In this document: piece after piece, positions 4,166 to 18,635 of the stretch
How the letters are laid out: every line of letters starts with the position of its first letter
How positions within the stretch are numbered: the stretch's first letter is position 1
NCBI GenBank assembly: GCA_025454525.1
Contig: JALOOG010000098.1
Coordinates: 1-33,865, forward strand
Source: Anaerolineae bacterium
Lineage (GTDB): Bacteria; Chloroflexota; Anaerolineae; Aggregatilineales; Phototrophicaceae
DNA: 33,865 bases
Direction: 5' to 3'
The notes under the pieces: generated by a model
What the model saw: only the letters and a program-made list of their open reading frames with translations
Databases searched by the model: none
What the model was told of the DNA's origin: nothing
Program-made: the position numbers and the translations under genes

Positions 4166-5752
4166 CTATTTATCCTCGTAAGACAAGCCACTTAATTCAT
4201 AGGCGGTTGCGGTGCGTTTACGTCCCTTGACGCGCACCTCTCCCAACGGGCGCGCTTGTGCCAACGCCCCTAAGCGCTTGATCACCGACTCTTCCACCAA
4301 AATTTGCCCCGGTGCGGCGTATTCTTGCAGGCGCTTGGCCAAGTTGACGACATCGCCGACGGCGGTGTAATTCATCGCACGTTCCGTGCCGATGTAACCG
4401 ACCACCGCTTCCCCAACATGCACCCCGATACTATAGGTGAGGCGATGTCCGTGTTGGGATTGGACTTCATTGGCGGCCTTGATCAAGGCCAAGGCGGCAT
4501 CCGCGGCCCGATGCACATGATCGGCTTGGGCTTGTGGCGCGTTGAACACGGCCATAAGTCCGTCACCGGTGTATTTATCCAAGGTGCCTTCCCACGCTAA
4601 GATGACCTCGGCGGCGATGCTCAAATAATGATTCAGCCCTTCGATCACTTTTTCGGGGTTTTCTTCTTCGCTCCAAGTGGTATAACCACGAATATCAGCG
4701 AATAAGACGGTGATCTCTTGACGTTTGCCGCCTAATTGCAGGGATTCTGGTTTGCTCAAGGCTTGCGAGACGATCGGTGGGGGGACAAAGCGCTCAAAGG
4801 TATCGCGCATCCGCTCGCGTTCTTCGTCTTGGGTGTTTTGCAAGGCCTCGTAATTGCGGGCATTTTCGATCGCGATCGCGGCGTAATCGCCCAAGGCGCT
4901 TAACAAGGCCGCGTCGTGATTGGTAAAGATCGGTTTGCCGATCACCACATTTCGCACCCCTAACGCACCGATCACCTTGTCCTTGATGATCAACGGGGTG
5001 TAAGCGGCGGAGGTGGGCATTGGGTTGAGCTTCAAGCGGAATTTTTCGGGATCGATCACCGCGGATTGACGGGTCTTGATGATGTGAGCGGCGATCACAT
5101 CGCGGATCTCCTCATTCATCGGTTTGGCTCGGCCGGCGTTGTGGCGGCGGGCCGAACGGCACATCAATTTTTCATCCTCTAGCAACAGCAGATAGGCCTC
5201 ATCCGCATTGGTGATCTGGGCAGAAGCTTCGACAATGCGCGGTAACAGCTGATTCATGTTGATCATGGCGGTCACGCTTTTGCCGATGCTATACAACACG
5301 TTTAGCTCTTGTACCCGATTTTGGAGTTCCTGATTGGCTTGGATCAAGCGGCGGGTGAGGGCCTCTTTTTCACGGGTGAGGTTGATCCGCGTGAGGGTGT
5401 TTTCGACAATTTTGAGCATTTCTTCCGGATAAAACGGTTTGCGGATGTAATCTTGCGCGCCCATGCGATGCACTTCTACGGCGATGTCTTCGGAACCATG
5501 CGCGGTCATAAAGATCACCGGAATTTCGATGCGGTGTTCATAGAGATATTCTAAAACCGCACGGCCATCCATGCGCGGCATGTTCATGTCTAGGAGGATC
5601 AGATCGGGTTTATAGCGCAAGGCCATTTTTAACCCTTCTTCTCCGTCTTTAGCAGTGAGGGTGTTGTAGCCTTCTGGCTCTAACACGTATTTCACCACAA
5701 ATTCTCGATTTTCTTCGGTATCGTCAATGATTAAGATAGTTTCATTTGCCAA
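4166..5752 (-). CDS. Response regulator receiver - GAF - class III adenylate cyclase
   Basis: A 528-residue soluble signalling protein. Residues 5-120 are a receiver domain with acidic pocket Asp10/Asp11, phospho-acceptor Asp55 (ILLDMNMPRMDG), Thr83 and Lys105. A coiled-coil-like linker (125-155) leads to a GAF domain at about 160-300. A class III nucleotide cyclase occupies about 340-520: metal-binding Asp353 (LFADIRGYT) and Asp397 (YTGDGLMAVF), base-selecting Lys393 and Thr463, and transition-state Asn470 and Arg474 (VVNLAKRL). All are present, so ATP to cAMP conversion is expected, controlled by phosphorylation and by the GAF ligand. The partner kinase is not adjacent; the orphan kinase at 18.6-21.6 kb is one candidate. 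Transcribed divergently from the CRISPR operon. Confidence 0.92.
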   Translation of the reverse strand: MANETILIIDDTEENREFVVKYVLEPEGYNTLTAKDGEEGLKMALRYKPDLILLDMNMPRMDGRAVLEYLYEHRIEIPVIFMTAHGSEDIAVEVHRMGAQDYIRKPFYPEEMLKIVENTLTRINLTREKEALTRRLIQANQELQNRVQELNVLYSIGKSVTAMINMNQLLPRIVEASAQITNADEAYLLLLEDEKLMCRSARRHNAGRAKPMNEEIRDVIAAHIIKTRQSAVIDPEKFRLKLNPMPTSAAYTPLIIKDKVIGALGVRNVVIGKPIFTNHDAALLSALGDYAAIAIENARNYEALQNTQDEERERMRDTFERFVPPPIVSQALSKPESLQLGGKRQEITVLFADIRGYTTWSEEENPEKVIEGLNHYLSIAAEVILAWEGTLDKYTGDGLMAVFNAPQAQADHVHRAADAALALIKAANEVQSQHGHRLTYSIGVHVGEAVVGYIGTERAMNYTAVGDVVNLAKRLQEYAAPGQILVEESVIKRLGALAQARPLGEVRVKGRKRTATAYELSGLSYEDK

Positions 5753-5876: not shown

Positions 5877-5905
5877 TTGCCATATAGTATTATTTCGCTT
5901 ATAGT
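5877..5905 (+). promoter_or_regulatory. Promoter of the type III-A CRISPR operon
   Basis: TTGCCA (-35, 5 of 6 consensus) and TATAGT (-10, 5 of 6) are separated by exactly 17 bases, in the 203-base gap between the divergent cyclase gene and the first operon gene. A start of transcription near 5912 would give a leader of about 45 bases. Inferred from consensus only. Confidence 0.6.
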
Positions 5906-5955: not shown

Positions 5956-6717
5956 ATGAGTGAAACACTCCTTGTTGCAACGCTTGGTGCTGAACCCCAA
6001 GTGGTTACGCTCACCTTAGATGCCTTAATAGCCCGTGGGATTGTCATAAACCGTGTGGTGATTGTTCATACGAATCCACAATTACCACCTATTGATGATT
6101 CCCTAAAAGCGCTTCATCAAGTATTCGTCATTGAACGTCATTATCAAGACATTTTGTACGTCCCTCATCCCTTAACCGACTCGCAAGAAATTTTGTCGGA
6201 TGTTACCACACCGCATCAAATTGAAGCCGCTTTTAGCAGTCTCTATGCACTTCTCAAACATCACAAGGCAGCGGGCAATGCTATTCATCTGTGTATAGCG
6301 GGGGGCAGAAAAACCATGACGATCTTTGCATTATCGGTGGCGCAGGCGATCCTAACTACTCAGGATGCGGTTTGGCATCTTGTCAGTTCATCTAAGATGC
6401 TTCAAACAAAAGCCATGCACGCGAATAATCCGACCGATGTGCAGCTTATTCGGGTTCCGTTTGTGAATCTAAGTGCTGAAAATAGTGTTTCTCCGCAAAA
6501 GTTTTTACAAACCCTTACGTCTGCCGAACGGGAGATCGTTGAGCTTTTAGTGCGTGAAGGATTACCGAATGCACTACTCGCACAACGATTAGGGAAAAGC
6601 CCTAAAACCATAGCCAACCAATTGACCGGGATCTATCTCAAACTACAGACGTATTTCGGATTACCTCACCCCCCAGATCGGGCGATGCTTTTAATATTGT
6701 TAGGAAAAAGTTCCTAA
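5956..6717 (+). CDS. CARF-domain protein fused to a LuxR-type helix-turn-helix
   Basis: A 253-residue protein heading the CRISPR operon. Residues 1-175 form a CARF (Rossmann-like) domain of the NE0113/Csm6-N type: the first strand and loop read LLVATLGAEPQVVTLTL, and the ligand-loop motif CIAGGRKTM (GGRKT at 116-120) matches the conserved signature of cyclic-oligoadenylate-binding and ring-nuclease CARF proteins. Residues 186-250 look like a LuxR/GerE-type HTH (TSAEREIVELLVREGL ... LAQRLGKSPKTIANQL). Two roles are possible and not exclusive: a transcription regulator switched by cyclic oligoadenylate, or a ring nuclease that ends signalling. The separation of 77 bases from cas10, with its own promoter candidate there, would allow differential expression. 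Domain calls are from motif recognition. Confidence 0.82.
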   Translation: MSETLLVATLGAEPQVVTLTLDALIARGIVINRVVIVHTNPQLPPIDDSLKALHQVFVIERHYQDILYVPHPLTDSQEILSDVTTPHQIEAAFSSLYALLKHHKAAGNAIHLCIAGGRKTMTIFALSVAQAILTTQDAVWHLVSSSKMLQTKAMHANNPTDVQLIRVPFVNLSAENSVSPQKFLQTLTSAEREIVELLVREGLPNALLAQRLGKSPKTIANQLTGIYLKLQTYFGLPHPPDRAMLLILLGKSS

Positions 6718-6724
6718 AATTTTG

Positions 6725-6768
6725 GGATGATTATCAGATTGACAAATCATCCAGTCATAAATTAACAT
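6725..6768 (+). promoter_or_regulatory. Hairpin and internal promoter candidate upstream of cas10
   Basis: An 8-bp stem (GGATGATT against AATCATCC, 6725-6752) lies in the gap after the CARF-HTH gene. Overlapping it is a perfect TTGACA at 6739-6744, followed after 18 bases by TAACAT at 6763-6768 (4 of 6). The hairpin has no T-run, so it may attenuate rather than end transcription. Either signal would let cas10-cas6 be expressed separately from the regulator. Confidence 0.45.
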
Positions 6769-6794: not shown

Positions 6795-9242
6795 TTGCAA
6801 AACTCACCGTCACCTAATCAGTTGGCCGCAGTAGCGGGTCTATTGCATGACATCGGTAAATTCTGGCAACGCACGGAAAAGCGTGGTGTTGATGAGGTTC
6901 ATCGGGATTTTGATCAAGGAAAATATGGTGGCAACGGCGCATACGCAACTTATAGTGCGGCGTTTGTTAAGCAATTTGTGCCTAAAACATTTCAACATAT
7001 GAGTGACGCAATACTTTCGCACCAAAATCCACAAGATGAACATGCGCGTAGATTGGCGTTAGCAGATCGATTCGCGGCAGCCCATGAACATCAAAAATCA
7101 ACGCATCAGCATCCTGAAGCACTTATTTCTATTTTTTCAACCCTTGGGACAAAACCGATTGAACGGTTTTATGTTCGGCCGCGTCCGCTTGAACTTGGAT
7201 CAAAGGCCCTTTTTCCAACGAACGAGGTCGCTGTGGGACAAAATGCGTATCAAGGCCTTTGGCAAGCCTTTATCCAAGAGGTACAGCAATTATCCGATGA
7301 AACAGATGCAGCGATCTATCTAGAAGCGTTGCAAGGGCTTATGCAGCGGTATTGCTGGGGTATTCCGGCAACGGATTATGGCGGTGAACCCGATATTTCT
7401 CTGTATGATCACAGTCGTGTTACCGCAGCTTTGGCCGCTTGTTTGAGCCATATTGACGATCTAAGCTTGGGGCGGTTATTAAAGGGGTGGGATGCAACCC
7501 CAATCGCCACTTTTATTGAAGGCGATATATCGGGGATTCAGCGCTTCATCTATACCGTGCCGACCAATGGCGCGGCACGCCAACTTAGGGCAAGATCGTT
7601 TTATCTGCAACTATTGACCGATGCCGTCGCACGGTTCATCTTGAAAAAATTTGAGATGCCGCCCACCAACCTCATTTATAGCGGAGGTGGACGTTTTTAC
7701 TTACTGCTTCCGGCTCACCTTCACCCAGATTTACAGTCCGTTCAAGAACAGTTGGACGCGGTGCTACTCAAACATCATGACGGTGATTTATACCTCGCAT
7801 TAGGTCAAACTAAACTGAATGCCCAAGATTTTAAACCAGAAAAATTTCAACAAAAGTGGGTTGAAGTTGGGCAATCTACCGCTCAAAACAAGCGTAGGCG
7901 TTTTGGGCAAATGTCACCTTCCAATTTATTTAATCAGATTTTTGAGCCGCGTGGCTATTATGGTGATCATGAATTTAGCAAGCGCCGCGATGACCGTGAA
8001 AATCCTTCAAATGAGGATGATTGGGAGTCTACGTCTGCTTTTGGCACATCGTTGGATGATTTTGGAAGGGCGCTCTCAAAAGCCAACTTTATCGTTTTGG
8101 GTGAAGTGAAGCCACAATTGCAGATGCAAGGATCATTTGAGGCGGTTTTGAATGAATTGGGTCAAGCGGTAGCGCTACTGGACAATTCTGGAAAACGGAT
8201 CTTCCCTCATGATAAGCCATTACTTGAAAAAGCGATTGTACTGGGAATACAGCATCCGCCTGATAAGGCCATGTTGGAGCAGATACGCGCACATTTCAAA
8301 TGTCCGCTTGTCGGCCGGGTTCGTTACACCGTCAATGTTGTTGCGAAAAACAACGAGGATATGACAGCGGACTTTAGCGAATTGCAACAATCCGCGCAGG
8401 GACTTAAACGCTTTGGGGTTTTGCGAATGGATGTGGATAACTTGGGTCAGCTGTTCGCAAGCGGATTTCGTGGCAAAGACGGCCAATCACGGGCTTCTCT
8501 GGCGCGTGTCGCCAGTTTGAGCTTTGCCCTAAGCCTTTACTTTGAGGGTTATGTGGGTGAGCTTTGCCGAAAGATGAATGAGGCATGTAGAAGCGAGAGC
8601 AAAAACGAGAACGAGAAAAAGATCGAAGCGGTCTACACGGTGTATTCCGGAGGGGATGATCTTTTTATTGCGGGTAGATGGGATAAATTGCCTGAACTTG
8701 CTGAACAAATCCACGATCAATTTAAAGAGTATGCTTGCAATAACCCCGAAGTGCATATCAGTGCCGGTATCACGTTACATAGCGGCAAATATCCGCTCTA
8801 TCGCGCCGCGGAAGAAGCCAGCGAGGCCCTAGAAGCAGCCAAGAACTTACCCGGTAAGGACGGCATCTGTTTCTTAGGGCAACCGATTAAATGGCAACAG
8901 TGGCCGGATGTCTTGAACCTTCGAGATACTTTGCGCCGGTTGATCAACACCGGTAACGTGAAGCGTAGTTTGCTTCAAACCCTGTTACAGCTTCATGCCG
9001 ATTATGAAGCGACCTTAGGAGAAACACGCAATACGCGAACTGGTGAAGGACAGTTGCCCTACGGGCCTTGGTTATGGCGTAGCGCGTATCAATTCGCACG
9101 CCTTGCTGAACGTTCGGGTGGGTCAAAAGAGGATATTAATGCGTTATATTCTAAGTTGAAGAAAGACAATTTTAAGGGTATTGCCCTAACCGGAATGACG
9201 GCACGTTGGGTTGATGCCCTAACTCGTAAAGAACGATCATAA
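6795..9242 (+). CDS. cas10: Cas10/Csm1, type III-A large subunit (HD nuclease and cyclase)
   Basis: An 815-residue protein. The N-terminal HD nuclease domain shows His18-Asp19 (LLHDIGKFW) and a further SHQNP motif. The first palm-like domain starts near 240 with GDISGIQRFIYTV. The second palm carries LRMDVDNLGQLF (about 541-552) and the intact cyclase motif GGDD at 619-622 (YSGGDDLFIAG), so synthesis of cyclic oligoadenylate from ATP is expected on target RNA binding, along with HD-dependent ssDNA cleavage. A C-terminal helical domain ends the protein. The paired cysteines of the usual Csm1 zinc finger are not visible between the palms. The start is TTG at 6795, supported by GAAGGGG 7 bases upstream and by retention of the HD motif close to the N-terminus. 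Confidence 0.97.
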   Translation: MQNSPSPNQLAAVAGLLHDIGKFWQRTEKRGVDEVHRDFDQGKYGGNGAYATYSAAFVKQFVPKTFQHMSDAILSHQNPQDEHARRLALADRFAAAHEHQKSTHQHPEALISIFSTLGTKPIERFYVRPRPLELGSKALFPTNEVAVGQNAYQGLWQAFIQEVQQLSDETDAAIYLEALQGLMQRYCWGIPATDYGGEPDISLYDHSRVTAALAACLSHIDDLSLGRLLKGWDATPIATFIEGDISGIQRFIYTVPTNGAARQLRARSFYLQLLTDAVARFILKKFEMPPTNLIYSGGGRFYLLLPAHLHPDLQSVQEQLDAVLLKHHDGDLYLALGQTKLNAQDFKPEKFQQKWVEVGQSTAQNKRRRFGQMSPSNLFNQIFEPRGYYGDHEFSKRRDDRENPSNEDDWESTSAFGTSLDDFGRALSKANFIVLGEVKPQLQMQGSFEAVLNELGQAVALLDNSGKRIFPHDKPLLEKAIVLGIQHPPDKAMLEQIRAHFKCPLVGRVRYTVNVVAKNNEDMTADFSELQQSAQGLKRFGVLRMDVDNLGQLFASGFRGKDGQSRASLARVASLSFALSLYFEGYVGELCRKMNEACRSESKNENEKKIEAVYTVYSGGDDLFIAGRWDKLPELAEQIHDQFKEYACNNPEVHISAGITLHSGKYPLYRAAEEASEALEAAKNLPGKDGICFLGQPIKWQQWPDVLNLRDTLRRLINTGNVKRSLLQTLLQLHADYEATLGETRNTRTGEGQLPYGPWLWRSAYQFARLAERSGGSKEDINALYSKLKKDNFKGIALTGMTARWVDALTRKERS

Positions 9243-9254
9243 TGAGGAGGAACA

Positions 9255-9701
9255 ATGAGTAACTATAGACCACAGAGACCGGGACAACACCAACAAGCCC
9301 AACAGAATAAGATTGAACTTCCACCGAATAGTGATTTAAACACGATCATTGCAGGCGATCCTGTTACGAGTGCCAAGTTAACCAACGAATGGGCAGAAAA
9401 AATTGGTAAGGCACTCAAACAAGACCTCAAAGCCGCGCAAATCCGTAACATCTTTGGCAAGGTACGCCAGATTGAGATGTATTGGTCAACCACTGAAACT
9501 CAAGATAGAACAGCCCTACGCGATCTGATCCTACTCAAACCCAAATTACGCTACCAAGCAGAACGCAAAGGAGAGGTTAAAGACTTGGCAAAATTACTTT
9601 CTGATCTGATTGACTTGGTTGATAACCGTGACAAATTTCAGCGTTTTGTCGATTTTTTTGAAGCAATTCTCGCTTATCACAAAGCCGAAGGGGGGCAATA
9701 A
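9255..9701 (+). CDS. csm2: Csm2, type III-A small subunit
   Basis: A 148-residue basic helical protein between cas10 and csm3, the expected place and size for Csm2. After a Gln-rich N-terminus (about 1-22, probably disordered) come helices with LKAAQIRNIFGKVRQIEMYW, the family's conserved T/A-x-Q-I-R motif, then LILLKPKLRYQAERK and a C-terminal helix ending FVDFFEAILAYHK. Csm2 subunits line the belly of the Csm complex along the crRNA-target duplex. A strong AGGAGG ribosome site lies 7 bases before ATG, the best in the operon, which suits a subunit present in several copies. Confidence 0.93.
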   Translation: MSNYRPQRPGQHQQAQQNKIELPPNSDLNTIIAGDPVTSAKLTNEWAEKIGKALKQDLKAAQIRNIFGKVRQIEMYWSTTETQDRTALRDLILLKPKLRYQAERKGEVKDLAKLLSDLIDLVDNRDKFQRFVDFFEAILAYHKAEGGQ

Positions 9702-9703
9702 AA

Positions 9704-10489
9704 ATGAATGATCATAAAAAACTTCAACTTGAAGGACGGGTATTCATCACAGGAATTATCGTAGCCAAAAGCGGCCTGCACATTGGTGGTTCAGGGGGGT
9801 CTTTTTCGATTGGTGGGAATGATAATCCGGTGATTGTTAATCCCATGAACGGCGAACCTTATATCCCCGGTTCATCCTTGCGCGGAAAAATGCGTTCGTT
9901 GACAGAGAAATATATGGGAGTAAAGCTTGTTCGACACGCTAATATCACGATGCACACAGCGGAGAATGAGGAAGATTACAAGGAGTCTCCAATTGCCAAT
10001 ATCTATGGCGTGCCAGCACAAGATTTTAATCTGCCTTCTCGTTTGATCGTGCGGGATGTGATGTTAACTTCGGCTTCGCGTGAACAGCTGCTCAAAGCCC
10101 GAACCGATTTGCCGTTTACCGAAGTTAAAACGGAAGTGTCGATTGATCGCATCACCTCACAAGCGAATCCGCGCTCCTTAGAACGGGTACCGGCCGGGGC
10201 GGAGTTCGGCCCGATGGAAATGGTCTACAACCTTTATATTCGGCAAGATGTGGACTGGTTCAGCGTGCTGGTCGATGGGATGACCCTGTTAGAAGACGAT
10301 TATCTCGGTGGGAGCGGATCGCGGGGGAGTGGTAAGGTGGCGTTCAAAGACTTGACGATCACGATCAAGCCAAAAAATGATTACCGTAATCCCCAACCTG
10401 TTCAGGGTAATTATGATACATTACGGGATTTCTCGAACGACTTAGAGAACATATTGAAAGAAATAAAACAACGATTGTTCCAGAGTTAA
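9704..10489 (+). CDS. csm3: Csm3, RAMP backbone subunit and target-RNA nuclease
   Basis: A 261-residue RAMP (Cas7-like) protein. SGLHIGGSGG at 23-32 and GGNDNPVIV at 37-45 align with Csm3; Asp40 corresponds to the catalytic Asp33 of the Streptococcus thermophilus protein, so cleavage of bound target RNA at 6-nt steps is expected. YIPGSSLRGKMRSL (53-66) is the conserved crRNA-binding block, and a Gly-rich loop (GGSGSRGSGKV) lies near 203-213. Csm3 polymerises along the crRNA. The gene starts 3 bases after csm2 stops, so translation is probably coupled. Confidence 0.96.
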   Translation: MNDHKKLQLEGRVFITGIIVAKSGLHIGGSGGSFSIGGNDNPVIVNPMNGEPYIPGSSLRGKMRSLTEKYMGVKLVRHANITMHTAENEEDYKESPIANIYGVPAQDFNLPSRLIVRDVMLTSASREQLLKARTDLPFTEVKTEVSIDRITSQANPRSLERVPAGAEFGPMEMVYNLYIRQDVDWFSVLVDGMTLLEDDYLGGSGSRGSGKVAFKDLTITIKPKNDYRNPQPVQGNYDTLRDFSNDLENILKEIKQRLFQS

Positions 10490-10493
10490 TGCG

Positions 10494-11579
10494 ATGGCTC
10501 ATAAAGCTTACAAATTCACTTTCAAAACTGGATTACATCCAGGGCGTGAAGGGTTGGCCTTGGAATCGAGTGGTGAAACGTTCCCTTCGGATTCGCTCTT
10601 TTCGGCGATCATCTCTGAACTGGCCGTGCTTGATCCGAAATTAGTGCCGGAAATACTGGCGGCGTTCAACCAAAGTGAGCCGCCCTTCCGGTTATCGTCG
10701 CTGTATCCGATCCTCGGAGATTTGCCGCTGTTTCCGATGCCGCGCCTGCAATTGCAGTATACCGCCCGGGAAGGTCAGCATTCCGTCAAACTATTCAAGA
10801 AACTGGCTTATGTATCACCTATAATCCTCCGGCGCATCCTCACTCACCAAAACATTGACGACTGGTTGCCTAACGAGGCTAATCCAGAGAGCAGTCGCGG
10901 ACGGTTTTTGCAAGGCGGGGCGGTGTGGATCGATGCTGATGAAGTCGTACAATTACCCCCTCGCTTCCAAAATCTATCGGTTAATCAGATGAAGGAGGCT
11001 AAATTCTGGAGCATCGGCACTGTTTCGCGAGTGACGATCGATCGGATCACCAACGAAAGCAATATCTATCAGGTGGGGCGGACGTTCTTTGCCTCTGAGT
11101 GCGGATTATGGCTCTTGGCGGATATTCATCAGTATGAAGACGCACTAGTTGAAGTGTTATATCATCTGGGAGATACCGGAATCGGTGGAGAACGCTCGGC
11201 GGGATATGGGAGTTTTGAGTTGTATTCAATCCCAGTGCCGGAAATACCGCTTGCCAGCCACGGCCCCCAAGCTATGACGCTCTCGCGTTACAATCCGACA
11301 CTTGAAGAATTAAATCAAGGTGTGCTTGGCGAAAATGCCGCTTATGAGTTGGTCGATATCGGCGGGTGGTTTAGTGCGATTGGTGCGGCCGGGCAGCGGC
11401 GTAAACGGATTCGTTTTATTGAGGCGGGATCCATCTTAGACTTGCGACAGACTCCAACCGTGACTGGTCGCCTTGTGGATGTACGTCCGCCGAATGATCT
11501 ACCGGGATCACCGCGTCATCCGATCATCCGTAGCGGAATTGCACTCCTAATCGGCGCTGGAAAGAGGGAGCATCCATAA
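10494..11579 (+). CDS. csm4: Csm4, RAMP subunit binding the crRNA 5' handle
   Basis: A 361-residue Cas5-like RAMP. The N-terminus YKFTFKTGLHPGREG...FPSDSLFSAI is typical of Csm4 (xLHxG then S-D-x-L-F), followed by the PFRLSSLYP block. The C-terminal glycine-rich loop GIGGERSAGYGSFEL (about 229-243) is well conserved. Csm4 contacts Cas10 and caps the 5' handle of the crRNA. ATG at 10494 lies 5 bases after the csm3 stop. The stop TAA shares one base with the csm5 ATG, indicating translational coupling. Confidence 0.94.
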   Translation: MAHKAYKFTFKTGLHPGREGLALESSGETFPSDSLFSAIISELAVLDPKLVPEILAAFNQSEPPFRLSSLYPILGDLPLFPMPRLQLQYTAREGQHSVKLFKKLAYVSPIILRRILTHQNIDDWLPNEANPESSRGRFLQGGAVWIDADEVVQLPPRFQNLSVNQMKEAKFWSIGTVSRVTIDRITNESNIYQVGRTFFASECGLWLLADIHQYEDALVEVLYHLGDTGIGGERSAGYGSFELYSIPVPEIPLASHGPQAMTLSRYNPTLEELNQGVLGENAAYELVDIGGWFSAIGAAGQRRKRIRFIEAGSILDLRQTPTVTGRLVDVRPPNDLPGSPRHPIIRSGIALLIGAGKREHP

Positions 11580-12703
11580 TGGCGAAACTGCATAAAACAT
11601 TCCGATTAACAATCACCACCCTGACCCCGTTGCATATCGGCACGGGTAACCATTTGCTACGCGATTTTGATTATGTCACCCGTGATGGAAAAACATGGGT
11701 TGTTAATGAAGAGGCGCTGGCAGATCTGCTCATAGACTATGAAGATGATCTGGCGAAAATGGCGGCCGGGCGACCGGTGAGTGAACTACTCAGACCGTCG
11801 GATTATCAGGCGGATAGCCCTTTGTTCCGTTATGTGCTTCCCGGTGAGCCGCGATCAGAGAAGCCCGGCTCGGTGTTACAAGAACAAATTAAAGATCCGT
11901 GGGATCGTCCTTACATCCCGGGTTCATCGCTGAAAGGCGCTTTGCGAACTGCGCTATTTTATGCGGGATATGAGCAACGCAAGTTACAATTCAAGGTGAG
12001 CGATCTGGGCAATAGTGCCAAGTTTGCTGCTCAAACTTTGGAACGCAATGTGTTTGCAAATAACGTAAGCCCCGGCAAAGCGCCTAATCACGATCTTCTG
12101 CGTGCTTTGCAAATCAGCGATAGTGTGCCGGATGATCAAAAACGTCTGCAAATTGTGAACATTACCGTTAGCAAAAACGGTCAATCAAGCGGCTCACCGA
12201 TCGAATTAGAGGCGATCCCCCCAAGTATCACGTTTGAGATGACTCTAACGCTTGATGGATACTTGCTAAATGATCAAACACGTCGAAATGTGGGTTATGA
12301 GGATGATCAGTTGAAATGGATGCGCCGCATTTCACAAGTTATCAATTACTGGACACAACAACGACTCGCCACTGAAATGGCACTCAAGCGGTATTTTAAT
12401 TGGAGTGAAGGGTTTCAACGGGTGATCCAATATTATGAGCAGGATCAACTCCAGAAGGATGAATTCATTTTGCAACTGGGTTGGGGTGGGGGTTGGGATA
12501 GCAAAACGCTTGGTAAGCATCTCACAGATAATCAACCCGAGTTTGCCAGATTGGTGAATGACAGCCGCTTCAAAATGTTGCGTAAAGGGAAATTTGCCGA
12601 GGGGGATATGTACCCCAAAACACGACGGGCCGTTGTCACCCCAAAAATGCGGCCTGTGAGTCTGTTGGGTTGGATATGGGTTCGCATGGAGGCGATGACA
12701 TGA
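11579..12703 (+). CDS. csm5: Csm5, RAMP subunit at the crRNA 3' end
   Basis: A 374-residue RAMP. The start FRLTITTLTPLHIGTGN is the characteristic Csm5 N-terminus, and YIPGSSLKGALRTALFY (about 111-127) is its conserved RAMP block. Csm5 sits at the 3' end of the crRNA in the complex and helps recruit trimming nucleases. The gene overlaps csm4 by one base and its stop overlaps the ATG of the following CARF-HEPN gene (ATGA). Sequence between about 250 and 340 is helix-rich and less conserved, as usual for this subunit. Confidence 0.94.
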   Translation: MAKLHKTFRLTITTLTPLHIGTGNHLLRDFDYVTRDGKTWVVNEEALADLLIDYEDDLAKMAAGRPVSELLRPSDYQADSPLFRYVLPGEPRSEKPGSVLQEQIKDPWDRPYIPGSSLKGALRTALFYAGYEQRKLQFKVSDLGNSAKFAAQTLERNVFANNVSPGKAPNHDLLRALQISDSVPDDQKRLQIVNITVSKNGQSSGSPIELEAIPPSITFEMTLTLDGYLLNDQTRRNVGYEDDQLKWMRRISQVINYWTQQRLATEMALKRYFNWSEGFQRVIQYYEQDQLQKDEFILQLGWGGGWDSKTLGKHLTDNQPEFARLVNDSRFKMLRKGKFAEGDMYPKTRRAVVTPKMRPVSLLGWIWVRMEAMT

Positions 12704-14163
12704 GTAAGGTAGTGCTATTGGCAAACGTTGGTAACAGCGATGTGAAACTTGAAGACGAAACGCGGCTTCCTAAGCAACCGGATGAATACCGTCGTTCTGC
12801 GCGCAAACTGGGTGAGGAGATCCGCGATAAGTTTGAAACGTATGTCGACTCAATTCAGTTACCGTTGTTAGAGCCGACTCTCGAATGGATTACAAAAGAT
12901 GCGACATGCAACATTAAAGATATTGTGGTGTTTATTTTTGCTTCCGATCAAGATAAAAAGGTGACACGCGAAGAAGAATGGCGAAATGATACGGCCCCTT
13001 ATGCTGAGGTCATCCAACTGTATTTGAATCAAAAACAGCAAATGCCAAAGAAGCAGGTGAAGATTATCCCGATTTCAGGCAATCCCGCAAACTACCCTAA
13101 TGCGTTGGAGTTTCATCAAAAAACACTCACAGACATCAAAAACAGACTTCCTGCTGATGCTCGGGTCTACATGGAAGTGTCTGGTGGGACTCCTGCTATG
13201 ACGGCAATGCTCATGTTGATGGGGGTTGAAACCTTCGGGCAAGATGTGATTACGCTTTATATGGATCGAGGTAGTAAATCCCCAAAACGGCTCGGCGTAT
13301 CCGAGGCGCTGTTCGCCCGTAAGACCAAGCAAACCCTACGTGACCAGATGAATTTATATGCTTATGGTGCGGCGAGAAAAACTGTGATACAAGATGGACG
13401 ACTTCTCACTGCTGATGAGAATCGACGAAATTTAATCAGTAAACTGTTAGGCTATGCAGATCGTCGTTTGGCATTTGACTACAAACGCGCTCGCGATGAA
13501 CTGGAAGGCTCTAAGGTTGTGGGAGAACTCCAAGCGCAATTAGATTATTGGCAGCGGGAATTAGCAGAGCCAAAGGCATCTCATCATCTCGCTGAACTTA
13601 TACATAGCGCACAAATCAAGCTCTTTCAAGGCGAATATGCAGATTTTACACAGCGGCTTTTTCGCTTTCAGGAGGCGATCTTACGCTGTATGGCTGAACA
13701 AATGGGCATTATCATTATCGACAACTATCTAAGCGACACTTGGCGTAGTGAGAAACCTGAACTTGATAACTATCTAAAATCGTATCGACGCAGGGAAAAC
13801 GGTATCATATTATCGGAGGGTTCTAAGGCAATTGAAACAAAAGGACGATCACTAAATCGTTACAGTCTCGGCGCAATCGTAGATTATTTTATCCAACAGT
13901 CGGATTGGTCGCACTGGAGTGAACCCACAGAAAAAATTTTCCGGCTTTCCTTGGTGGCCGATCTCCGGAATAAAGGGATTGCAGGGCATGGTTTTGAAGG
14001 AATTAGCCAAGAAGATATTGAAAATGTTTACACGCATAACTGTGATCAATTGATTAATCATCTGAAAGAGATTTACGAAGCTGTATTCGAGAAAGCGATC
14101 CGTGATAACCCATACGATACGATCAATGCCCTGATCCTTGATCTCATTGAGGGACGGCGATGA
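12700..14163 (+). CDS. csm6: CARF-HEPN ribonuclease (Csm6/Csx1-like), cyclic-oligoadenylate activated
   Basis: A 487-residue protein from the ATG at 12700, which overlaps the csm5 stop as ATGA; a longer in-frame reading from 12670 would overlap csm5 more and adds no conserved residues. The N-terminal CARF domain shows VVLLANVGNSD (strand 1 and loop) and SGGTPAMTAMLM (161-172), the ligand-binding signature of Csm6. A helical linker (about 220-330) leads to a C-terminal HEPN domain whose active-site motif is Arg423-x6-His430 (LRNKGIAGH). The family degrades single-stranded RNA non-specifically when cyclic oligoadenylate binds the CARF dimer. Co-occurrence with a GGDD-intact Cas10 supports this. 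Whether cA4 or cA6 is the activator cannot be told from sequence. Confidence 0.93.
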   Translation: MSKVVLLANVGNSDVKLEDETRLPKQPDEYRRSARKLGEEIRDKFETYVDSIQLPLLEPTLEWITKDATCNIKDIVVFIFASDQDKKVTREEEWRNDTAPYAEVIQLYLNQKQQMPKKQVKIIPISGNPANYPNALEFHQKTLTDIKNRLPADARVYMEVSGGTPAMTAMLMLMGVETFGQDVITLYMDRGSKSPKRLGVSEALFARKTKQTLRDQMNLYAYGAARKTVIQDGRLLTADENRRNLISKLLGYADRRLAFDYKRARDELEGSKVVGELQAQLDYWQRELAEPKASHHLAELIHSAQIKLFQGEYADFTQRLFRFQEAILRCMAEQMGIIIIDNYLSDTWRSEKPELDNYLKSYRRRENGIILSEGSKAIETKGRSLNRYSLGAIVDYFIQQSDWSHWSEPTEKIFRLSLVADLRNKGIAGHGFEGISQEDIENVYTHNCDQLINHLKEIYEAVFEKAIRDNPYDTINALILDLIEGRR

Positions 14164-14999
14164 GCGATTTGCTTTCTGTGGTTGTCAAAGTTCAGGCGCA
14201 AGCGGATGTTACGCTTCCAGCTCATACCGGACGTATGATCTATAACGTTTGGATGCGTTGGCTTGAGGCCTACGATGCCGCGCTTGCCAAGCATTGGCAT
14301 GATTCCCAAGGTCTGAAACCCTATACTTGTTCGACTCTGATTCACCCCAATTCGAGAACCTTGGCTTGTGGCGATGTCGCGTGGTTTCGGATCACAACGT
14401 TGGAAAAAGGCCTTACCCGTCTTTTAAGATCTTATCTTGATCAACCGCCTAATGTTGTGATCATCGGTGAGACTCCGTTTGAAATATTAAGTATTACCGA
14501 TGATTCACAAAGACATACATGGGCTAATTCAATCGCTTATGAAGACCTTGCAGCGCCTCATCTGCTAATGGGCGCAAATCCTGAGCGTCGTTTGAAAATG
14601 GAATTTGCCGCACCTGTGGTTTTCAATCACCATGAGATGAATATGCCTTTCCCTTTGCCAGAGTTGGTTTTTGGGAGTCTATTGGATAAGTGGAATGCCT
14701 TTAGCCCTATTTCTATTCATCAGGATATTCGGAAATTCTGCGCTTCAGGTTTGAGCATTGGCTACTTCAACTTGCGTTCGCAACGTGTGCAGGTATTGGA
14801 GCAGAATCAGCCGATCGGCGGTAAAGGCGATATTCAATATGTGGTGACACGCTATGATCGTTATTGGATGAGTATTGTCGGTTTATTGGCAAATTATGCG
14901 TTTTATGCGGGAGTAGGGCGGTTTACGGCTTTAGGCCTAGGGCAAACACGCCATGTTCCTATGCTGAACCCTCAGATGAGTAGTCCACCACAAAAGTAA
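14160..14999 (+). CDS. cas6: Cas6, crRNA-processing endoribonuclease
   Basis: A 279-residue Cas6-family RAMP ending the operon, overlapping the Csm6-like gene by ATGA. The N-terminal ferredoxin-like half has AHTGRMIYNVWMRWL and the nearby His45/His47 (KHWHDS), candidates for the catalytic base. The C-terminal half carries the diagnostic glycine-rich loop YAGVGRFTALGLGQTR (about 250-265). Cas6 cuts the repeat part of the pre-crRNA and leaves an 8-nt 5' handle loaded into Csm4. No CRISPR array lies in the window, so its substrate must be transcribed elsewhere. Confidence 0.94.
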   Translation: MSDLLSVVVKVQAQADVTLPAHTGRMIYNVWMRWLEAYDAALAKHWHDSQGLKPYTCSTLIHPNSRTLACGDVAWFRITTLEKGLTRLLRSYLDQPPNVVIIGETPFEILSITDDSQRHTWANSIAYEDLAAPHLLMGANPERRLKMEFAAPVVFNHHEMNMPFPLPELVFGSLLDKWNAFSPISIHQDIRKFCASGLSIGYFNLRSQRVQVLEQNQPIGGKGDIQYVVTRYDRYWMSIVGLLANYAFYAGVGRFTALGLGQTRHVPMLNPQMSSPPQK

Positions 15000-15204: not shown

Positions 15205-15678
15205 CTTTTACGTCAAAAGTTGATCGGATGAACACGCTATCTTGCGACCCCTGAAGTCGCTAAACATCGCTTCTTTGTCTGGTTAGATCTAGACACCGTG
15301 CCGGATCACACCTTGCATGTGATCGTCCGTGATGATTACTTTTTCAGTTATGGGCTTTGCGAACAGGCGCAACCTTAGAAGATCGTCCGCGCTATACATC
15401 TACCCGTACTTTTAACACATTCCCGTTTCCTTACCCTCCCGGGCGATCAACTGAAGGATCGCACACTCACCAACCTGTATAACGCGCTTAACGCTTATCG
15501 GGGGATCGAACAGATCCGTGTGAAGCCAATTGCGGGGGATTTTGCGCCGCGTCTAGATACGCTACATCGCGAATTGGATCAGGCGGTGTGTGTGGCATAT
15601 GGGTGGGATGTGTCGATTTTAGAGGATGAAGATGTGCTGTTAGCGCGATTGTTGGCGCTCAATTTACAACGCGCCTGA
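15205..15678 (+). pseudogene. 3' remnant of an MmeI-like N6-adenine DNA methyltransferase
   Basis: No single frame is open, but successive frames give typical blocks of large single-chain type II (MmeI-like) or DrmMI-like DNA methyltransferases: TRYLATPEVAKHRFFVWLD and VIVRDDYFFS, then in another frame LEDRPRYTSTRTFNTFPFPY, then in a third LKDRTLTNLYNALNAYRG and the C-terminal ELDQAVCVAYGWDVSILEDE ending in ALNLQRA and TGA. A stop codon precedes the first block, and the usual HSRIHELW segment is deleted between the first two. So at least one deletion and two frame changes have occurred. The N-terminal nuclease and SAM-binding core are absent. The last 81 bases recur at 17068-17148. Confidence 0.8.
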
Positions 15679-17206: not shown

Positions 17207-18361
17207 TTATTGTCCAGCCCGTTGATCGCCCCATGACACAGGCGGCAACTGATAGAAACGTTCACGGATCTCGTTAATGCTCAACACAGGCAACGCCGCG
17301 GTGATCTCCTGCAAACGCAAGCCTTGATCGGTGGGACGGATATCCTCAAATTGTGCGATCCCGTCCTCTGACCAAAACGGTAACAGATCTTGGCTGATCT
17401 TTTGCGCGATCCGCACCAATTTGGGATACAAGGTGCGCTCAATAAACAGACGTTCGGCGACTTTGGCATTGGCTTCGGTCGCATTATCGCTCACCAAGCC
17501 GACCGGAATCCCAAAAATGTTCAGGATCTCATCCCGATGTGCCTTGCGTCCCTGCAAAAAGTCTAGATCGGTGTGTGATAAGCCGATGCTGCGCCATTCG
17601 ATCTCACCGCCACGCACAAAGGCCGTGCGCCGTTGACCCGCGCCATAGGCCGTGCGCCATTCCCGTTTGATCCGTTCAAAATCCGCATCCGAGATCCGTT
17701 CCCGAATGTTGACCACGCCCGCAGGCACACCATGATCATCGCCGAAGGTGTTTTTATTCCATTCGGCCATCGCCCGATCGCTTAAGATCGCCACACGGGC
17801 CGCCTCTAACGCCGATAAGCCGTAATAATCATTGGCGGGATGCCAGCGCTTGAAGTGGATCACCTCTAAGGTGGAGAGTGGCATCCGCTGACCGTCTACC
17901 TCATACACATAACCCTTGATGTGATCATAGGCATCCGGCACGATCGTCATGCGATCCGGACGCAAAGGCCAGATCTCGCGTGGGCGGCCGGACTCATCTC
18001 CGATCAACAACCAATAGGCGTTTCCAGTCAGTTCTAAAAAGCCGAGTGTTTGCTCAAATAACTCAAACCGACTTAGGAACGGATTCGGCGCATCTAACAG
18101 CACCTCCAACGGATGACGCACCACCTCTAAGCGGCGATCACCTTCGATCCGATACACATGCAACGGCACTAACGCACTTGCTTCGGCGATCCGGTTGATC
18201 GCCACATACACCCATGACGAGGCTTCGTAAGCGTTCAGGTGCGAGATCTGGGGTGTGGCGCGGACGCTGTGTTGGATCGTTTGCGGGATCAAGGGCGGTG
18301 GTGTCGTCCGCAAACGTGAGACGATCGGAAAACTTAAGAGACTCGATAACCAGTTGAACAT
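17207..18361 (-). CDS. HK97-family phage portal protein, solitary
   Basis: A 384-residue protein starting at ATG 18361, preceded by AAAGGAT; the longer in-frame reading to 18520 runs back through the upstream terminator and repeat and is not credible. HK97-type portal features are clear: AYEASSWVYVAINRIAEA near the N-terminus, the NPFLSRFELFEQTLGFLELT block, GNAYW, the VIHFKRWHPANDYYGLSAL block and a C-terminal helix-rich part with DEILNIFGIPVGLV. Portal proteins form the dodecameric DNA gate at a capsid vertex. No terminase, protease or capsid gene flanks it; the gene has its own promoter-side and 3' terminators. Either a phage remnant kept intact or a domesticated gene. Confidence 0.92.
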   Translation of the reverse strand: MFNWLSSLLSFPIVSRLRTTPPPLIPQTIQHSVRATPQISHLNAYEASSWVYVAINRIAEASALVPLHVYRIEGDRRLEVVRHPLEVLLDAPNPFLSRFELFEQTLGFLELTGNAYWLLIGDESGRPREIWPLRPDRMTIVPDAYDHIKGYVYEVDGQRMPLSTLEVIHFKRWHPANDYYGLSALEAARVAILSDRAMAEWNKNTFGDDHGVPAGVVNIRERISDADFERIKREWRTAYGAGQRRTAFVRGGEIEWRSIGLSHTDLDFLQGRKAHRDEILNIFGIPVGLVSDNATEANAKVAERLFIERTLYPKLVRIAQKISQDLLPFWSEDGIAQFEDIRPTDQGLRLQEITAALPVLSINEIRERFYQLPPVSWGDQRAGQ

Positions 18362-18401
18362 CGTGTAGATCCTTTCAGTAGGTTGTAAATAGACAAAAAA
18401 A

Positions 18402-18425
18402 ACGCCTTGCGAAATGCGAAGGCGT
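18402..18425 (-). terminator. Terminator between the histidine kinase and portal genes
   Basis: A hairpin with outer stem ACGCCTT/AAGGCGT and a short inner pairing is followed on the minus strand by eight T residues. It lies downstream of the histidine kinase and upstream of the portal start, so it insulates the portal gene from kinase transcription. Confidence 0.75.
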
Positions 18426-18449
18426 GGTGTTACCGATGTAGAGTTGTTA

Positions 18450-18635
18450 AACCACAGAGGACACACAGGTAGGTACAGGAAAGTTTCTGTGAAAAGCTTT
18501 AAACCACAGAGGAAGAACAAAGACAGAGCCGTTATGAGCTGTTAAACTCTGTTTTTGACCCTTTGTAAGCTTAATTTACAACCCCATTCCTAGCCTTTCC
18601 CCAACCATGGGGCAGGGAATCGGCTTGCATGAGAT
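18450..18635. repeat. Intergenic repeats (AAACCACAGAGG and a GTTATNAGCTGTTAAA family)
   Basis: AAACCACAGAGG occurs at about 18449 and 18501, and AAACCACAGA again at 24360. Next to the second copy, GTTATGAGCTGTTAAA, a TTTACAA segment, CCTAGCC...CCCCAACC and CGGCTTGCATG match the repeat region at 540-640. This resembles short dispersed repeats seen in many environmental bacterial genomes. No gene is present here. Confidence 0.55.

Follow-up and report, generated by a model that had tools for sequence, protein, structure and literature searches.

A CARF protein with a LuxR-like helix-turn-helix heads a type III-A CRISPR operon in Chloroflexota and is a candidate cyclic-oligoadenylate-responsive regulator

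Among the described systems closest to the protein reported here is archaeal Csa3 (Csa3a and Csa3b). It has a CARF domain followed by a winged helix-turn-helix (HTH), is encoded beside cas genes and has been proposed to convert the cA4 signal into a change in transcription; its HTH is a MarR-like winged helix (PMC8844856), and it often accompanies type I-A systems (PMC9704534). The orthologous CARF–winged-HTH ring nucleases Sis0811 and Sso1393 join a Crn1-like CARF domain to a C-terminal HTH, also a winged helix (PMC10018336). Makarova et al. 2014 (PMC4012209) predicted the Csa3 and NE0113 families to be direct regulators of transcription. In type III immunity, transcriptional control by cyclic oligoadenylate (cOA) is unsettled: Csa3a binds cA4, but its DNA binding in vitro was non-specific and did not depend on that ligand (PMC8699464), so that the regulatory step cannot be assumed. 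Nor need an HTH beside a CARF domain regulate transcription, as that of Csx1 lies beside an RNase domain (PMC9704534) and the winged helix of Sis0811 inhibits the protein's own ring nuclease (PMC10018336).

Domains of the LuxR/NarL type (NarL, VraR, DosR, GerE, EL222) are usually coupled to REC, PAS or autoinducer domains, whereas here such a domain is coupled to CARF. A survey of type III systems set predicted transcription factors aside (PMC11229360), a survey of ring nucleases limited candidates to 250 amino acids (PMC12409355) and would therefore have missed the 253-residue protein described below, and a review that covers CARF proteins with an HTH treats Csa3 and Csx1 (PMC9704534). In the literature searched, no paper had such a fusion in its title, and a LuxR-like CARF fusion appears undescribed in the searchable literature.

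The window analysed here, a 33,865-nt stretch of DNA from an Anaerolineae bacterium (Chloroflexota), contains a 253-aa open reading frame with an ATG start at 5956-6717 on the forward strand. A first-pass annotation of the letters alone had read it as a CARF domain fused to a LuxR-type DNA-binding domain, unlike the winged helix of Csa3, at the head of a type III-A operon. The motifs that it quoted all lie in this frame: LLVATLGAEPQVV at residues 5-17, GGRKTM at residues 116-121 and LAQRLGKSPKTIANQL at residues 208-223. The position in the operon was also borne out. Csm1 to Csm5 all score above their NCBIfam cut-offs, which makes this a type III-A operon, in the order CARF-LuxR, cas10/csm1, csm2, csm3, csm4, csm5, csm6, cas6. 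The CARF-LuxR gene is separated from cas10 by 77 nt, and the later genes follow with gaps of at most 12 nt or overlaps. The operon and its control-like sequences are as follows.

5877-5905, + strand: promoter-like sequence of the sigma-70 type, TTGCCA-N17-TATAGT, ahead of the operon (consensus match only)
5956-6717, + strand: CARF-LuxR gene, 253 aa, gene no. 1 of the type III-A operon (open reading frame, Pfam, PADLOC, dN/dS)
6725-6752, no strand assigned: inverted repeat GGATGATT-N12-AATCATCC between the CARF-LuxR gene and cas10 (by eye)
6795-9242, + strand: cas10/csm1 (TIGR02578, 607 bits; HD at residues 18-19, GGDD at 619-622)
9255-9701, + strand: csm2 (TIGR01870, 72.5 bits, above cut-off)
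9704-10489, + strand: csm3 (TIGR02582, 213.7 bits, above cut-off)
10494-11579, + strand: csm4 (TIGR01903, 200.2 bits, above cut-off)
11579-12703, + strand: csm5 (TIGR01899, 126.8 bits, above cut-off)
12670-14163, + strand: csm6/csx1-type CARF-HEPN ribonuclease (PADLOC PDLC01509, 294 bits)
14160-14999, + strand: cas6 (Pfam PF10040, 56.7 bits, above cut-off)

The csm6/csx1-type protein scores 72.6 bits against TIGR02672, below the cut-off of 150, and carries RNKGIAGH, an HEPN-like R-x6-H motif. Together with the HD and GGDD motifs of Cas10, this suggests, as far as motifs tell, that cOA can be both made and used by products of this operon. Cas6 reaches 50.5 bits with TIGR01877 (cut-off 58.65). 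The 33,865-nt window showed no family of repeats with the regular spacing of an array, and the genome to which it belongs, 97% complete, gave no Cas1 match (as a control, Cas1 was detected in 9 of 14 genomes), so the operon seems to be without an adaptation module of its own. No Rfam family matched in the window.

Three further observations concern the flanks. A gene for a response regulator-GAF-adenylate/guanylate cyclase (4166-5752, - strand) lies divergently upstream of the operon. About 2.2 kb past cas6, a phage portal protein (PF04860, 203.9 bits) is encoded at 17210-18520 on the - strand, and an 85-nt stretch occurs twice, at 15591 and 17064, with 93% identity; the portal gene and the repeat are possibly a prophage remnant. 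Between 24.5 and 33.8 kb, among several other duplications, a 31-nt palindrome-like sequence, ATGAGGG..GATC..CCCTCAT, is present in three copies (24553, 27153 and 30243) and may be a terminator or an operator.

A single-protein contig scan found one relative of the window's protein, an 85% identical copy in Anaerolineae bacterium SB15 (locus L003). That locus keeps the order CARF-LuxR, cas10, csm3, csm6, cas6, the last gene being common to both loci. Of the genes that flank the operon in the window, eight were compared, five on the upstream side and three on the downstream side; none had a match in the L003 stretch, which extends 10 kb upstream and only 1.7 kb past cas6. The divergent cyclase gene had none within the 10 kb upstream of the L003 operon. 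Compared with L003, dN/dS was 0.06 for the whole CARF-LuxR gene and 0.08 for HTH residues 186-234, and both domains are under purifying selection. By eye, in this two-sequence comparison, the promoter-like sequence at 5877-5905 is among the best-kept upstream stretches. The inverted repeat at 6725-6752, which overlaps a promoter-like match at 6739-6768, is not conserved in the L003 counterpart sequence.

Within the protein, we distinguish the following parts.

5956-6480, + strand: CARF domain, residues 1-175, NE0113/Crn1-like (PF09623, 93.2 bits; Sso2081 and Sis0455 profile matches; VIA-align)
5980-6000, + strand: CARF motif I TLGAEPQ, residues 9-15, with E13 at the place of Crn1 Ser11 (alignment)
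6301-6312, + strand: CARF motif II GGRK, residues 116-119, Lys kept (sequence, alignment)
6502-6657, + strand: LuxR/NarL-like HTH, residues 183-234 (Pfam, PDB profile search, model, family alignment)
6679-6699, + strand: C-terminal helix, residues 242-248 (model secondary structure)

The N-terminal part matched Pfam family PF09623 (Cas_NE0113) over residues 13-176 with 93.2 bits (E 2.5e-26; gathering cut-off 23), and with 93.1 bits when residues 1-175 were searched alone. It passes PF09623 but falls below both TIGR cut-offs of the Cas_NE0113/Csx14 group, namely the NE0113 ring nuclease equivalog TIGR02584 (36.6 bits, cut-off 80.65) and Csx14, TIGR03642 (54.6 bits, cut-off 90.35). Two NCBIfam models also scored short of their cut-offs: the Crn1 ring nuclease NF040581 (16.9 against 125) and Csa3, TIGR01884 (26.4 against 60.2). 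Judged by the TIGR01884 cut-off, the protein falls outside the Csa3 family; its CARF domain fits Crn1/NE0113.

For the tail, the whole protein scored 31.1 bits with HTH_38 (PF13936, residues 186-222; cut-off 27), 20.2 bits with GerE/LuxR (PF00196; cut-off 23.5) and 24.1 bits with Sigma70_r4_2 (cut-off 25.7). When the halves were searched apart, as had been suggested, residues 176-253 gave 33.8 bits with HTH_38 and 26.9 with Sigma70_r4_2, both above cut-off, and 23.3 bits with GerE, just below 23.5. Because the GerE cut-off was narrowly missed, we call the tail LuxR-like and keep it out of PF00196. The first-pass annotation had made its claim depend on residues 186-250 resembling some HTH family; HTH_38 exceeds its cut-off there, and the claim stands.

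A PDB profile search with a query profile built from 21 family members ranked VraR first for the tail (2.9e-7), then VpsT, NarL and GerE, and matched the CARF part to Crn1/Sso2081 (1.3e-5) and Sis0455 (5.3e-5). Csa3 chains ranked later, at 3.4e-4 to 5.5e-4, with the HTH region matched, so that the family profile fits LuxR/NarL domains better than Csa3 chains (2.9e-7 versus 3.4e-4), with Csa3 nevertheless matched as well. In a family alignment, T218 was present in all 62 rows and H or Q at position 222 in 60; these are consistent with T-V/I-x-x-H/Q, the LuxR signature of domains such as NarL, VraR, DosR, GerE and EL222. The PADLOC profile PDLC01851 ('CARF3--CARF'), which has no curated cut-off and which we take to derive from Makarova et al. 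2020, matched in two stretches with 241.7 bits. As the isolated tail alone matches positions 203-270 of its 279 (E 2.5e-18), this profile already holds the CARF-HTH fusion, yet its label says only 'CARF' and gives no role as a regulator.

An AlphaFold2 model, built from two sequences, had a mean pLDDT of 60.7. Blocks of residues 181-250 reached 60-88, and residues 117-159 and 161-177 fell below 50, so the CARF part of the model serves as support only. VIA-align matched this part to CARF proteins, among them Cdn1, Sis0811, Sis0455, Sso2081 and Sso1393, with Z of about 9-11 (about 10 for Sis0811, Sso1393 and Sso2081). The tail had Z of about 9-10, with an rmsd of 1.6-3.2 over 59-74 residues, with EL222, VraR, StyR, DosR, VpsT and NarL; for helical bundles a VIA-align Z below about 13 may reflect a mere common arrangement, so this fold match backs the sequence match and cannot stand alone. 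The recognition helix falls at residues 216-234 in the model, and the C-terminal helix at 242-248 presumably stands in place of the LuxR dimerisation helix, by analogy with LuxR-type structures. With the whole model as query, the two best Foldseek entries were both Csa3, at E-values of 1.5e-4 and 5e-4 and an rmsd near 10; Sis0455, VraR and StyR followed. Profiles, model and conservation together support the reading as CARF plus a LuxR-like HTH distinct from the Csa3 winged helix, within the limits set by the GerE miss and by Csa3 coming first in Foldseek.

The CARF-LuxR gene is a member of a sizeable family and not an isolated oddity. Family matches at E 1e-15 or better occurred in 57 of 400 sampled Chloroflexota genomes, the window's own included, with at most 6 candidates scored per genome; among whole genomes of kin, 26 of 61 (again including its own) were positive, in some cases through the HTH only. 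From these we collected 87 genes, 20 rows from kin genomes and 67 from the 400-genome scan, counting the window gene and dropping kin rows that matched the HTH only and second pieces of one gene. The HTH was read directly in 62 aligned rows and from model coverage in the 400-genome scan for the remaining rows; three of the 87 have no HTH (G335:C71:65028, G226:C1:1759971 and G229:C428), and leaving out such genes makes the number of carriers 56 of 400.

Linkage to type III systems recurs across this set. In 43 of the 87 cases (43 of 84 without the HTH-less three), the gene is followed on its own strand by a Cas10 palm match no more than 4 kb away, the distance being measured to the palm match; cas10 is usually, though not always, the next gene, and in G027 a RAMP match intervenes. 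Cas10 or RAMP matches were within 20 kb of 64 genes (61 of 84 without the three), RAMP genes having been sought in 33 of 74 genomes. The other 23 of the 87 had no such match within 20 kb, several of them being on short contigs, and for 5 of the 23 Cas10 was on the same contig more than 190 kb away. At the genome level, Cas10 (PF22335) was detected in 110 of 400 genomes: 53 of 57 carriers versus 57 of 343 non-carriers (Fisher p ~3e-30, with related genomes not independent). Outside the phylum, plasmid records of two Rhodothermus marinus plasmids contain a homologue directly before csm1-csm2-csm3-csm4-csm5, annotated 'CRISPR-associated ring nuclease'. Among viral contigs, 14 stretches matched a search pattern and none encoded a relative.

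That annotation bears on whether the protein senses cOA or destroys it; the first-pass annotation had named ring-nuclease function as a competing or added role. Two residues of Crn1/Sso2081, Ser11 in motif I and Lys106 in motif II, are important for its cleavage of cA4 (PMC10018336). The window protein has G11-A12-E13 where Crn1 has G-T-S, and G117-R118-K119 matching Crn1 G-R-K. Of the two residues, then, the motif II lysine (K119) speaks for this role and the lost motif I serine against it. At the serine position the 62 family rows have Q in 29, R in 17, E in 10, K in 5 and S in 1. HTH-less PF09623 relatives, which have other tails, often keep the serine: it was present in 11 of 18 CARF units, the others having A (4), Y (2) or H (1) and none Q, R, E or K, although some units are near copies and one more locus gave no motif. 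For Sis0811, the titles of PDB entries on mutants name Ser12 and Lys169, and that serine too is absent here. Since 61 of 62 rows have another residue in place of the serine, 'ring nuclease' is a doubtful database name, and its use for some family proteins needs checking.

A ring nuclease with an HTH appendage, whose CARF domain cuts cA4 and ends the alarm while the HTH has a structural role or, as reported for Sis0811, tunes activity and regulates no gene, would agree with the kept Lys119, with structural matches that include the ring nucleases Sis0811, Sso1393 and Sso2081, with the name given to the Rhodothermus homologue, and with Sis0455, in which the motif I serine is seemingly not critical for catalysis (PMC10018336). 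Against it stand E13 and the Q, R, E or K of 61 of 62 rows where HTH-less relatives keep Ser in 11 of 18 units, a motif II lysine that is also absent from 32 of 60 tree rows, and scores short of the Crn1 and NE0113 cut-offs; we consider it unlikely. On these sequence grounds we rate a sensor above a ring nuclease for the window protein, with weak cleavage still conceivable.

A tree of 60 rows, made by a quick method with SH-aLRT supports only and no bootstrap, and leaving out the truncated loci L066, L083 and L084, divides the family further. The window protein falls in a set of 14, nearest to L003 and then to L065. A clade of 17 has a GQRP/GARP-type motif I, 14 of its members belonging to the window's own family or order and 3 lying elsewhere in the phylum. 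A clade of 29 combines a divergent AAA-Csx3 gene with Arg in motif II. The AAA-Csx3-like gene was divergent in 29 of 60 tree rows, with extrapolated starts 27-269 nt apart, and PADLOC identified AAA-Csx3 as the divergent neighbour of L105, L106, L112, L117 and L123. L112 has Cas10 close by as well, so the pairing is not a trait of solo genes only. With the PADLOC-identified neighbours as queries, 14 of 19 GQRP/GARP-type rows had an effector gene of the kinds named next, at most about 0.4 kb away and on the strand of the CARF-LuxR gene (query loci are counted in this and the AAA-Csx3 tally, and L084 was assigned by overall similarity). Of 10 neighbours submitted to PADLOC, the same-strand adjacent genes were CARF-RelE at L072, CARF-DUF2103 at L076, CARF-HEPN at L070 and a TIR protein at L069, and the L068 neighbour had no match. 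Genes of the GQRP clade (17 rows) are often inside operons, and the one in G003 begins 29 nt after the end of a RAMP match; the operon-head position is thus not general.

The association of Csx3 with motif II suggested a regulator that limits itself, binding cOA, acting on DNA and slowly destroying its ligand: proteins with the motif II lysine, the window's included, would cleave, and those with arginine would leave this to the divergent Csx3, known as the ring nuclease Crn3 (PMC7371418, PMC12409355). Arg was found in 29 of 29 divergent-AAA-Csx3 rows and Lys in 28 of 31 others, and Csa3, in which Arg98 ends the corresponding loop, binds cA4 and lacks ring-nuclease activity (PMC8844856). However, AAA-Csx3 changes only once on the tree, and two of the three K/R changes occur without Csx3; the correlation amounts to one evolutionary event and is no evidence of a functional trade-off, which we rejected. 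The motif I serine is, moreover, missing in both the Lys and the Arg types. We regard such self-limitation, a special case of the explanation that we prefer, as possible but doubtful.

Our preferred explanation is that the CARF-LuxR protein is probably a cOA-responsive transcription regulator that would act in the manner of Csa3, a judgement that takes in the case of slow ligand cutting. It is consistent with the block from CARF-LuxR to cas6 common to the window and L003 and with the repeated occurrence of family genes near cas10 and cOA-linked genes; control of transcription by cOA is what we infer from two things, the architecture and the gene neighbourhood across many genomes. The regulator would dimerise, and its paired CARF domains would bind the cOA that Cas10 of the same operon makes on meeting foreign RNA; by analogy with Crn1 and Csa3, cA4 is the likeliest ligand. 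Ligand binding would shift both LuxR-like HTH domains, so that the dimer would bind DNA at or near the promoter-like sequence at 5877-5905 and change the output of its own operon (cas10, csm2-csm6 and cas6). LuxR-type regulators are mostly activators; for this reason activation, giving positive feedback during the alarm, is our first guess, with repression that cOA lifts a close second. A bacterial host and a place as the first gene of a type III-A operon set this protein apart from Csa3. If the regulator is real, the CRISPR alarm also switches genes on or off.

Operator searches bear on the DNA-binding step. A palindrome-constrained motif search in 11 to 23 regions per set identified no operator, and neither did palindrome and free motif searches in 22 divergent regions. 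Scores above those of shuffled sequence traced to AAA-Csx3 coding starts, to coding sequence of the gene preceding GQRP-type genes (by eye) or to ribosome-binding sites, so we claim no operator. One 20-nt palindrome, scoring 42.0 against a shuffle maximum of 34.2, lies over purine-rich, ribosome-binding-site-like sequence and was not trusted.

These searches are also compatible with an HTH that serves as a dimerisation or protein-contact module, making the protein a cOA 'sponge' or an effector partner and neither regulator nor nuclease. The low positive net charge of the HTH, with a median of +1 across 62 rows (from -6 to +6; +3 in the window protein), points the same way. By contrast, the tail matches the DNA-binding NarL, DosR and VraR in sequence and in fold (the latter with Z below about 13), and T218 and H/Q222 of the recognition helix are conserved; we hold this alternative to be improbable.

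Returning to a cOA-responsive regulator, the family as a whole might comprise widespread bacterial second-messenger transcription factors whose CARF domains, having lost the ring-nuclease serine, are pure or nearly pure sensors. We put this forward tentatively, at somewhat less than even chances, with three arrangements: at the head of a cas10 operon (the window and Rhodothermus), beside one cOA effector (the GQRP type) and divergent from AAA-Csx3, whose expression CARF-LuxR would set. Its HTH is of a familiar type, many of its loci have the gene at the front of the operon, and homologues number in the dozens, so the family offers a bacterial test case for cOA-controlled transcription.

Several loci stand out among the relatives. 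L161, L162 and L163, PF09623 relatives from the same phylum, are open frames of 579-596 aa that contain a pair of CARF-like units. GGRK is present in both units, and nothing in these frames matched the LuxR-like tail. At L069:7964-9810 (G027, a single-contig genome), the CARF-LuxR gene lies 11 nt from a TIR-protein gene and about 488 kb from cas10, possibly a stand-alone cOA module. Head-to-head CARF-LuxR and AAA-Csx3 genes with a very short intergenic region, as at L105:8959-11117, L112:8923-11028 and 27 further loci, are a natural putative regulator-target pair.
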